Assembly (NCBI GenBank): GCA_921293015.1
Contig: OV121089.1
Coordinates: forward strand, 42,603,220-42,667,219
DNA: 64,000 nt
From: Phorcus lineatus
Taxonomy: Eukaryota > Mollusca > Gastropoda > Trochida > Trochidae
Reading direction: 5' to 3'
The notes beneath the pieces are model-generated. The model had not been told where the DNA came from. It did no database searches and saw only the letters and a list, made by a program, of their open reading frames with translations. Shown here piece by piece: positions 18,601 through 57,830 of this stretch. The position numbers were made by a program, and so were the translations under genes. Position 1 is the first letter of the stretch. Each line of letters opens with the position of its first letter.

Positions 18601-21600
18601 AGCAAAATAAAGACAATAGGATGACCGAAAGAATTCCAAAATACGATATGTAACTGCTTCATGATATCAACTTTCCCTCTTAGTCGTCAAATCCATTTTG
18701 ATTGGACTATGACAATCCTTGGACGCGGTTTTCTTGGGTGGGTTTATATAAGAAAGGTTAAAAACTTGGTCGGTGAGAGATCCATTACTATGGGATATCA
18801 CGTAGTGTTACAACATTTATTATCGATATGAAGTTCTAAATTGTCTCGAAAAAAATGAAGGTTTTTGTAATAAACGGGAGAGAATGTAAAAACTTTTTTA
18901 ATGTTTACTGTAGAAAATATGATTTTGTTTCACTTCACTTTATGACAACTTAGTACTTAGTGGATGATTCGTTTGTATTTAACTAACGCATATTATATTG
19001 TTAGCTAGTATAACATCTCACACCGTGTTGCAATATCTCTGTCTTCGAATTTAACAATTAATGACATGAACACATACCTGGCGCAAGCGTTAGAAACATC
19101 CTATGTAATCCTAAAGAATGTTGGTACCTGTCAGTCACGATGCACTTTTTTTAAATGTGTGTCATCGTCCGTAGAAGTGCATGAGCCAAATCTTCTTTAT
19201 TGGTTTTTGACTAGACGCCGTGACAATAAACTAAGTAGCAGTCGAATGCCAAGATTACGCCATTATGACAGGACATATTCCGCTTGGTGGGTCCAAGGCG
19301 GTAAAATTCAAAAGGTATAATTAGAGACCATTAAATCAAGAATTGAAAATGAATGCGATAGGATTATATAACGGCCACCTGTGTGTCATAAAAAATAAGA
19401 CTATTTAAACCAGTCTGATTGTTGTGACAACATTTGGCAGACATCGTAATTGATGTACACATGCTATGGGATAGTGCGCATAGCATCACATTTAAACACT
19501 GTCTTTCGCTTGGAACAATACAAATAATTAAAGATGTATTTAACATCAATTCATCGGAGGTTTGAGTTGCTTGGATGACTTTAGATACTAGTATGTTTAA
19601 ACAGTTGTTTGGAATGTGAGATTTCCTGTTGTTTTTTCATTAAGGAGGTTATACTTCCGCCGACTAGCACGTCACACGGCAGGACACGCGGCTGGCCACG
19701 CCTCAGTGACCACGGGCCAGTTCAATTCTGCTCACTGGTGCTAATTAGTTTGTGATTGGAAAAAGCCGTATTAAAGTTGTTTATAGGCCGATTCCGAAAA
19801 TTTAAACTCAAGTTACTGGCAAATTAGAATACGTATTTTATGAATCACGAAAGTTGCCGTGGGTCATTTCAGTCGATCTTTAAGATGATCTTTGATACTT
19901 GATGGAGAAGATCAAATTCTCTGGTTTGAATTTATTGTCGTTCAACAGATTACAAGAAAACTAAATTCTTCCAAGTTATTTTGAAATAAGTATGGATAAA
20001 CAGTACAAATGTTTTTTGCTTATTTCTTGTTGCTCACACCTGCAAGAGAATATACTGTGGAACTTATGTAACAGAAGTGATTGTGAGATCACCTCCCGCG
20101 GGATTCGAACCCGGGACTTTCAGGTGAGAGTCCTACACTCTACCGATTCAGCCAGAGAGATATCCCTCTGGCCAAAGCCAGTATACATAGGAATGCTTTT
20201 TATTTCACCCTGCTACATACACCCACCACAAAGTGACTCGTCCTTGAGTCAAGCCATTTGGAGTTATCAAGCACCTCAGTTTGACGTACTCAGGGTGTAG
20301 TGAGCAGTAGGGAGTTGCCCCGGCCCCACATTGGGCGCCAAATGTAACAGAAGTAATTGTGAGATCACCTCCCGCAGGATTACAACCCAGGACCTCTGGG
20401 TGAGACTCTACACTCTACCGATTCAGCCAAAGAGATATCTCTCTGGCCAAAGCCAGTAGGAATGCTTTTAATTTCACCCTGCCACACATAGATAGGGTTA
20501 AACATATCCTAGGGAGGCTTGACAAGTTGATGGGCTGGTCACTACATGGATCCACTAGAGAATACCAGTAGCCCTGCTGATGCAACAAACATTAGAAAAG
20601 TATAAGACCAGAGGTGGGACTACCAAACTTAGTAGGGTGACTTTCTCAAGGAGTTGGCCTAATAATTGGACCCAAGATGGGCCGAAATGTTTTTATTAAA
20701 TCTTTGAAGAAATCATTGGTCTGCTTATCTATATATTTGGTAGTCACATATGGCACTTTCTAAAAAAGATTCCTTAACAAATCAATGAACTTACAGAGAA
20801 AAAATATATGGGCAATGTGAACATTTGTATGACAGGTGCTAGGAGAAGGCTGGACGGAGACAGAGAGGAATATTGCTAGGCAGGCAGTAGCAGGACTTCT
20901 CTGGTCCAAACAGTTCTACATGTACAACGTGGACTCTGCTCTTGTTGGTATGTTCGCCGGTCAAGCAGGGTTTAGACTTTGATTTTAAATGACAATAAAA
21001 AATAACAACCCAACTGTCCTGCTTGCAATGAAAGATGGAAATCTTTTTGTGCCATTGGCACCTTGCGCCATGCCCTAGTTTGAAGAGATGTTGTGTCGCA
21101 AGAATGCAGAGCGCCAAGCGAGGAATCAACATCTCAAATCTTTTATGGTCTCTTGGTTAGAAATCAATTCTAGGTTATGAGCATAAGCTCTGCCAACTGA
21201 GCTACTTTCCAAGTTTACAGGTTACTGGACTGACAACTATTTTTTTTGATAACCTTATTGGGCTTCAGATTAGTAATCGGATAGGAGTATCATATTCAAA
21301 TAGAGAAAAACTCTTTGTCCTCTTTGCCCCTTACTAAACTGATATCTTGCCCATTATCAATTTTTCTTCTCTCATCAAAGGCATGCAGGAATGTTTCTAT
21401 TTTGTGTTAACATGTAAAAATGTTTCTGTGATTAGTCATTCTATGGTTAAACCTCTATGGTGTTAAAGTTGACATGGCTTCTTAGAGTTGTTAGACAGTT
21501 GTTGCTGGTCACTTCTTTTATCAGTGTTTTCTCCAGAATTCCACAGACTTTACAAAGACCAAGGTCAGTCTCCCTCTGATGAAGTGGCGCCCCCTCGTAA

Positions 21601-35154: not shown

Positions 35155-53296
<18,142 letters not shown>

Positions 53297-56805: not shown

Positions 56806-57830
56806 CATAAAGGTGAGAACAGTAGAGGTGGTGTGAGGACGAGATGAGAGGGGTGAGGCAAGATGAAGTAAGGTGAGAACAGGTGAGGTGGGATGAAGAT
56901 GAGATGAGAGGGGTGAGGCGAGGTAAAGTAACATAAGAACAGGTGAGATGGGGTGAAGATGAGATGAGAGGGGTGAGGCGGGTGAAGTAAGGTGAGAACA
57001 GGTGAGGTGGGATGAACATGAGATGAGAGAGGTGAGGCGAGGTGAAGTAAGGTGAGAACAGGTGAGGTGGGGTGAAAATGGGATGAGAGGGGTGAGAGAA
57101 GGTAAAGTAACATAAGAACATGTGAGATGGGGTGAAGATGGGATGAGAAGGGGAGGTGTGGTGAGGTGAAGATTGAATGAGAGGGTGAGACGGGGTGAGT
57201 ATGTATGGTGAGAACAGATGAGGTTGAGTGAAGATGAGATGAGAGGGGTGAGGCGAGGTGAAGTAAGGTGAGAACAGGTGAGATGGGGTGAAGATGAGAT
57301 GAGAGGGGTGAGGCGAGGTGAAGTAAGGTGAGAACAGGTGAGGTGGGATGAAGATGAGATGAGAGAGGTGAGGCGAGGTGAAGTAAGGTGAGAACAGGTG
57401 GGGTGAAAATGGGATGAGAGGGGCGAGAGAAGGTAACGCAACATAAGAACATGTGAGATGGGGTGAAGATGGGATGAGAAGGGGAGGTGTGGTGAGGTAA
57501 AGATTGAATGAGAGGGTGAGACGGGGTGAGATGAAGTAAGGTGAGAACAGGTGAGGTGGGGTGAAGACGAGATGAGAGGGGTGAGGCGAGGTGAAGTAAG
57601 GTGAGAACAGGTGAGGTGGGATGAAGATGAGAGGGGTGAGGCGAGGTGAAGTAACATAAGAACAGGTGAGATGGGGTGAAGATGGGATGAGAAGGGGTAG
57701 GTGAGTAAAGGTGGAGATTGAATGAGAGGGTGAGGTGGGGTGAAAATGGGATGAGAAGATGAGGTGAGGTGAGGTGAAGATTGGACGAGAGGTAGAGGTG
57801 AAGTGATTTGAAGTGATCGGGTGAAGATGG
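56806..57830. repeat. 60-bp minisatellite, about 16 copies
   Basis: Unit GAGGTGGGATGAAGATGAGA then TGAGAGGGGTGAGGCGAGGT and GAAGTAAGGTGAGAACAGGT. The + strand is nearly all purine plus T, and the - strand is open in several frames (SHLHPTSPVLTLLHLASPLS type), which is an artefact. A divergent block GGGAGGTGTGGTGAGGT recurs at about 57151 and 57481, suggesting larger periodicity. Confidence 0.93.

Follow-up and report, generated by a model that had tools for sequence, protein, structure and literature searches.

A Helenus-type TRIM with tRNA-like LTRs in the gastropod Phorcus lineatus, and a Gypsy element that is a candidate for its helper

The window analyzed in this study, a 64,000-nucleotide stretch of contig OV121089.1 of the trochid gastropod Phorcus lineatus, contains a 420-bp TRIM that belongs to Helenus; the assignment is based on the features described for that group, each of which was found where it was tested. 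It is highly likely that the window copy is an old member of a recently active Helenus-type family, whose transcripts would be made by RNA polymerase III (Pol III), enter the particles of an ~9.3-kb Gypsy element that we name X, and be reverse transcribed together with X. What is new here is a specific Gypsy helper candidate together with a genomic signature of joint reverse transcription, namely hybrids joined at the primer-binding site (PBS) that have intact target duplications.

The features of the window copy are collected in Table 1. In agreement with an earlier reading based on the sequence only, the element has TG..CA ends and direct repeats of about 150 bp, the two LTRs being 86% identical, and no coding capacity is evident (the longest stop-free frame is 77 aa). 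That reading did not give the strand; the element lies on the minus strand, and hence its 5′ LTR is the repeat at 20343-20486. The claimed PBS for tRNA-Lys(CUU) with one mismatch is present, but it is 18 nt long and not 19. Both A and B boxes had been ascribed to each LTR. The A box is indeed found in both, but an intact B box is present in the 3′ LTR only, where it constitutes the single strict B-box match of the whole window (0.31 expected by chance); it is broken in the 5′ LTR, which is the LTR expected to drive transcription. The seven-pair acceptor stem, also ascribed to each LTR, is not a constant feature either: across the family, 49 of 99 LTRs could form all seven pairs. The earlier description thus stands as far as the structure is concerned, and had to be amended for the length of the PBS, the 5′ B box and the acceptor stem. 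When checked with Infernal, the Rfam tRNA model RF00005 matched positions 20161-20090 of the minus strand with 27.2 bits (E 0.0023), but this is under the gathering score of 29. A cmscan of region 19900-20650 up to E = 1 gave nothing but tRNA, without a 5S rRNA match, and ARAGORN, in its bacterial setting, called no tRNA in the window. The window copy is probably old and dead because its LTR divergence, 13.3%, is the second highest among 40 LTR pairs. Each LTR also contains a 22-nt near-palindrome (GCCAGAGAGATATCCCTCTGGC; 20151-20172 and 20426-20447) that shares positions with the A box and with the beginning of the tRNA-like segment.

Table 1. Features of the Helenus-type TRIM in the window, and X-Helenus hybrids read over both ends
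Feature	Position	Strand	Description
Whole Helenus-type TRIM	20067..20486	-	420 bp
5′ LTR	20343..20486	-	144 bp, TGTGGCAGGG...CTGTTACA
A box, 5′ LTR	20418..20429	-	TGGCTGAATCGG
B box remnant, 5′ LTR	20377..20387	-	GGTTGTAATCC, broken
PBS for tRNA-Lys(CUU)	20323..20340	-	18 nt, one mismatch
Internal region	20218..20342	-	125 bp, no evident coding capacity
Polypurine tract (PPT) remnant	20218..20231	-	TTGTGGTGGGTGTA; commonest family form GTGGAGGGGGTGTA
3′ LTR	20067..20217	-	151 bp
tRNA-like segment, 3′ LTR	20090..20161	-	RF00005, 27.2 bits, under gathering score 29
A box, 3′ LTR	20143..20154	-	TGGCTGAATCGG
B box, 3′ LTR	20101..20111	-	GGTTCGAATCC, intact
Target site duplication, one side	20063..20066	.	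CTTA
Target site duplication, other side	20487..20490	.	CATA, 3/4 match
L035 hybrid			duplication TAAA; X LTR 871 bp, start TGTGGCAGGG
L036 hybrid			duplication TAGT; X LTR 259 bp, start TGTGGCCGGG
L115/L129 hybrid			duplication CACG; X LTR start TGTGGCCGGG
L132 hybrid			duplication ATTA; X LTR start TGTGGCAGGG
L131 hybrid			duplication TACA; X LTR start TGTGACAGGG

The assembly searched comprises 957,807,699 bases in 74 contigs. A whole-element search, for which the best 40 of 991 first-look candidates were scored, gave at least 45 full-length matches and one fragment; the 45 full-length places include the window copy and 8 units that overlap one another within three tandem arrays. The family unit is an LTR-PBS-PPT-LTR of ~415 bp. 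A pattern made up of the LTR end, two bases and the PBS, allowing up to 2 mismatches, was present at 160 places genome-wide and at 0 for the reversed control, and all 30 junction places that were cut out were Helenus copies, some of them truncated. Together, 79 loci (the COX1 locus included) gave 81 placements and 60 unique insertions, which take the form of two-LTR units, solo LTRs, truncated copies and tandem arrays of up to 5 LTRs; these insertions are the best hits to the window copy and no random sample. The LTRs are identical in 11 of 40 pairs and the median difference is 1.4%, which indicates recent movement of the family. LTRs inside the three tandem arrays are 0-2.8% different. Two loci, L116 (C19:18.16 Mb) and L117 (C11:49.25 Mb), contain divergent Helenus relatives with longer LTR matches of 69-85%, the former with an altered sequence after the PBS; these two may be older subfamilies.

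Copies with intact target duplications, which had been proposed as a check, were counted in the Phorcus lineatus genome. Element ends were anchored on TGT and ACA, at most two bases from the end of the alignment, and 51 of the 60 unique insertions entered the count, 9 with incomplete ends being left out. A perfect 4-bp duplication was found in 47 of these 51; a 3-bp duplication occurred once and a 5-bp duplication in none of the 51. In 1000 trials with randomly paired flanks, matches averaged 1.8 (1.77 of 51) and never exceeded 8. Three of the four exceptions, the window copy among them, match at 3 of 4 positions. The fourth, L052/L107 (C9:15.155 Mb), is a Helenus copy adjoining X sequence whose flanks match at 1 of 4 positions, and a 19-bp direct repeat (GTTGACACCCGGCCACAAA) is present at both sides of this region.

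In 30 of the 39 two-LTR copies, the PBS matches tRNA-Lys(CUU), whose 3′ end we assumed for this comparison, over all 18 nt, and the commonest PPT, GTGGAGGGGGTGTA, is present in 23. ARAGORN called no tRNA across the 79 loci, and 3 tRNA matches across 20 loci reached the Rfam gathering score. Selection on the promoter boxes is not evident: 2 of 23 LTR columns within the A and B boxes are polymorphic, a proportion no lower than in the rest of the LTR (10 of 121; p = 1). Between the start of the tRNA-like part and the 3′ end, 32 of the 39 copies are without a T4 in the sense orientation, compared to 61% of shuffles, while at least one T4 is present on the opposite strand in all 39 (56% of shuffles). 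The first T4 in flanking DNA is found at a median of 68 bp past the 3′ end. Because most copies are without a sense T4, a Pol III transcript would be expected to read through both LTRs and to end in flanking DNA.

Two tRNA-SINEs inserted side by side could mimic an LTR pair, and this was the competing account named in the sequence-only reading, with a separate target duplication for each of the two repeats. A tRNA-like segment with an A box in each repeat, and an intact B box in one of them, is what such a pair would offer. However, 35 of 39 two-LTR copies have a single perfect 4-bp duplication flanking the entire unit, as do all 8 solo LTRs, all 3 tandem arrays and the one LTR-LTR unit; moreover, the PBS and PPT are constant, and the LTR-PBS junction recurs at 160 places. 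The 47 of 51 insertions with one 4-bp duplication around the unit therefore indicate that the element is not a pair of SINEs, and independent insertion of the two repeats was rejected on this duplication test as next to impossible. A different question is which polymerase transcribes the family. A TRIM driven by RNA polymerase II, in which the tRNA fragment is dead and transcription depends on a TATA- or AATAAA-like stretch in the early part of the LTR, could account for the AATAAA motif of 15 5′ LTRs and 16 3′ LTRs (39 of each), and for the fact that the boxes are no more conserved than the rest of the LTR. Yet AATAAA is missing from over half of the LTRs, 32 of 39 copies are without a sense T4, and of the 99 family LTRs 95 have an intact A box and 88 an intact B box, compared with just 49 in which the full acceptor stem of seven pairs could form. 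We consider transcription by RNA polymerase II unlikely, and Pol III transcription from the tRNA-like part is the reading that we prefer.

Pattern searches for the same PBS led to X, a Gypsy repeat of ~9.3 kb, a search for a larger Gypsy relative with a shared PBS having been proposed as a check. The X LTR ends in GGCCACA, which is followed by AAT or AAC and then by the PBS. At least 47 matches to the X LTR were obtained (best 40 of 106 candidates scored); among the matches listed, four pairs are spaced by 8.7-8.9 kb and others by 6.8, 14.6 and 30.3 kb. The X copy at C19:16,755,850-16,765,198 is about 9.35 kb long and has unequal LTRs of about 872 and 684 bp. One piece of it contains the LTR end with the PBS, and other pieces match a PNMA-type gag (6.3e-6) and RVT_1 (8.6e-33) and give, downstream of RVT_1, a weak integrase match (4.5e-4) that is below the curated cut-off; one 410-aa frame of this copy gave no matches. 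Reverse transcriptase before integrase is the Gypsy order. The flanks of this copy, the one X copy for which both flanks were read, are TTAG and TTTG, a duplication matching at 3 of 4 positions. X and Helenus have in common 20 nt at the PBS, two past the tRNA match, and the first 10 nt of the LTR, which in X starts with TGTGGCAGGG; the X PPT, AAAAGGGGGGTGAA, is similar to that of Helenus. Past the LTR start no significant similarity was detected between the X and Helenus LTRs, and their 3′ ends differ (GGCCACA in X versus CTGTTACA in Helenus). This narrows the candidate signals common to helper and TRIM to the 10-nt LTR start, the PBS and the PPT.

The same Lys PBS also occurs in a further element, L110 (C2:569350-572350), in which two LTR pieces (375 bp) that are 99.7% identical lie 2.6 kb apart. 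Its 297-aa frame, which has what we take to be a CCHC-like motif, gave no significant Pfam match. Its family has an A directly after this PBS and counts 18 such sites. L110 was set aside as a helper, since at E below 0.01 only the PBS stretch is common to it and Helenus.

A screen for an X-like LTR end followed by the PBS and the Helenus leader (up to 3 mismatches) gave 12 candidate hybrids and none in the control. The five exact matches among these 12 were read over both ends (Table 1). In all five, an X LTR on the left meets Helenus exactly at the PBS, the internal part and LTR of Helenus following on the right, and a perfect 4-bp duplication flanks each composite. The X LTR is 871-875 bp long in four of them (L035, L115/L129, L131 and L132) and 259 bp in L036. 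Its start departs from TGTGGCAGGG in three of the five, which we count against the cycle proposed below. The Helenus parts are 0.4-7.2% different, those of L035 and L036 being 99.6% identical. The share of hybrids among X-PBS junctions is high: 11 of 19 junctions lead into the Helenus leader and are hybrid candidates, one is the composite L068 described below, and 7 are others. The 259-bp X LTR of L036 (positions 1773-2033) is nearly its own inverted repeat (84%); it starts with TGTGGCCGGGTGTC and ends with GACACCCGGCCACA.

Each hybrid that was read has its own perfect duplication and thus seems to have been integrated as a unit, which supports joint reverse transcription with X. Judged from their structure, the simplest account is that X plus-strand strong-stop DNA, consisting of the whole LTR plus the PBS, would have paired with minus-strand DNA of Helenus inside a shared particle. 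The claim that the element borrows a Gypsy reverse transcriptase is borne out to this extent: mobilization of Helenus in trans by a Gypsy element is very probable in view of X hybrids with perfect 4-bp duplications, and X is a specific candidate for the helper.

The hybrids could also have arisen by ectopic recombination between integrated copies instead of reverse transcription, and the 20 nt of identity at the PBS could support such an exchange. It would leave unmatched flanks, however, whereas the five hybrids read have perfect and different 4-bp duplications and flanks paired at random agree about 3.5% of the time (1.77 of 51); ectopic recombination is accordingly a highly improbable source. 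It is less far-fetched, but still improbable, that some hybrids were copied from one another and that an X-Helenus composite multiplies as a family. The 11 of 19 X-PBS junctions that enter the Helenus leader and the 99.6% identity between the Helenus parts of L035 and L036 would fit such a family. The X LTRs of these same two hybrids are nevertheless far apart in length (871 versus 259 bp), the remaining pairs are 2.4-7.2% different in their Helenus part, and unlike LTRs should block a normal cycle. The identity of the helper is the point on which an alternative has most to be reckoned with. X is perhaps not the sole helper, because the L110 family carries the same PBS and because the LTRs of X and Helenus are unlike past their start, and it is conceivable, though we hold it to be the less probable case, that most of the help comes from some other Gypsy family, with X as an occasional partner. 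Both the existence of a second family with the same PBS, with 18 sites at which A comes next, L110 included, and the unlike 3′ ends of the X and Helenus LTRs would agree with this. Against it, X is the element found joined to Helenus, in a hybrid screen that covered X only, and it shares the first 10 LTR nucleotides.

With X as the helper, the following cycle can be proposed. RNA polymerase III would bind the tRNA-like A and B boxes of the 5′ LTR, and transcription would run through the internal region and the 3′ LTR into flanking DNA, as the T4 pattern suggests. The Helenus RNA would then enter X particles, where tRNA-Lys(CUU) would prime reverse transcription. An integrase, presumably that of X, would insert the product with the 4-bp duplication that is observed. 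In the hybrids, a whole X LTR would have become joined to Helenus at the PBS before the composite was inserted as one piece. LTR recombination would account for the solo LTRs and tandem arrays.

One locus appears to preserve a trace of the primer. The 3′ part of tRNA-Lys was found at five places in the genome, of which four are tRNA-Lys(CTT) genes according to ARAGORN and do not encode the CCA. The fifth is the composite L068 (positions 960-1415; C1:62769208-62769663), in which the X LTR end is followed by AAT and by a PBS that lies within 61 nt complementary to mature tRNA-Lys(CUU). This tRNA copy includes the CCA and is joined, at a TCGGTAGAG common to both, to the tRNA-like part of a Helenus LTR that adjoins a Helenus copy; the X LTR start was not present in 201 bp fetched at the outer boundary (L133). 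Because the four tRNA genes read are without CCA, the 61 nt were most likely copied from mature tRNA-Lys, well past the usual 18 nt. L068 supports tRNA-Lys as the primer, and its junction could be explained by a template switch to the tRNA-like part of the Helenus LTR.

The source of that tRNA-like part was addressed by comparison with two isotypes only, tRNA-Lys and tRNA-Thr. Mean identity is 63% to tRNA-Lys and 66% to tRNA-Thr, the two genes being 67% identical to each other, so that neither is clearly closer. A genome-wide tRNA search (best 63 of 82836 candidates scored) gave at least 54 matches, all listed ones on C32; a dense cluster of them is located at C32:44.644-44.752 Mb, and three stretches fetched from it are tRNA-Thr(AGT) genes. 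A merger of a SINE with an LTR element, as suggested in the sequence-only reading, may be the origin. That the Helenus promoter was derived from its own primer tRNA and not from a SINE, by repeated primer read-through and template switching, is a speculative possibility to which we give little credit. If true, these two processes could install or renew a Pol III promoter in an LTR.

The interpretation put forward earlier holds in part. The element is an animal TRIM with tRNA-like LTRs, but it is not a new parallel solution to that of Cassandra: elements of this kind have already been named Helenus and compared with Cassandra (Kojima 2024, PMC10886601, here and below for the parts of that paper covered). 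Helenus, of the TRIMp3 group, is described there as TRIMs of 311-1263 bp with tRNA-like LTRs, a PBS and a PPT; in animals they have 4-bp duplications and a Gypsy helper, deduced from PBS similarity and duplication length, and their proposed origin is insertion of a SINE into the LTR of a TRIM (PMC10886601). The Phorcus element resembles them in the A and B boxes of its tRNA-like LTRs, in its PBS, PPT and TRIM size and in its lack of coding capacity. It likewise has 4-bp duplications and a presumed Gypsy helper, here X by way of the hybrids, and tRNA-Lys is among the primers listed for Helenus of bivalves (PMC10886601). It differs in its host, a vetigastropod (Trochidae), whereas molluscan Helenus as published there are from five orders of pteriomorph bivalves, and in having a specific helper candidate and PBS hybrids. 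The present results thus place Helenus in a gastropod, beyond the pteriomorph bivalves of PMC10886601. Among top-ranked titles and abstract starts in the open-licence literature, neither a gastropod Helenus nor strong-stop hybrids between a TRIM and its helper were found.

The LTRs of plant Cassandra, another TRIM, likewise contain a Pol III promoter (PMC10886601), and long tandem arrays are indicated by a title cited in the same paper. The promoter of Cassandra, however, is that of 5S rRNA, and its transcription ends within the 5S segment of the 3′ LTR (PMC10886601), whereas the Phorcus element has a tRNA-like promoter and lacks a sense T4 in 32 of 39 copies. The PBS-hybrid test could be applied to other TRIM families, Cassandra included. 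The biv-TRIM elements (Satovic 2019, PMC6934838) are mollusc TRIMs that also occur as solo LTRs and tandem arrays, but a canonical PBS was not unambiguously identified in them, and a tRNA-like LTR is not mentioned in the parts of that paper covered. The tRNA-derived SINEs (SINE2) are comparable as short non-coding elements with a tRNA-like Pol III promoter; unlike the Phorcus element with its LTRs, PBS, PPT and 4-bp duplications, they are moved by non-LTR retrotransposons (PMC10886601).

Elsewhere in the window, a 530-aa stop-free frame on the minus strand (35641-37233) gave no Pfam matches at E 0.001. Two large minisatellite arrays, one at 44308-45215 with about 25 copies of a 36-bp unit and another at 56810-57743 with about 15 copies of a 60-bp unit, are both open in several frames.
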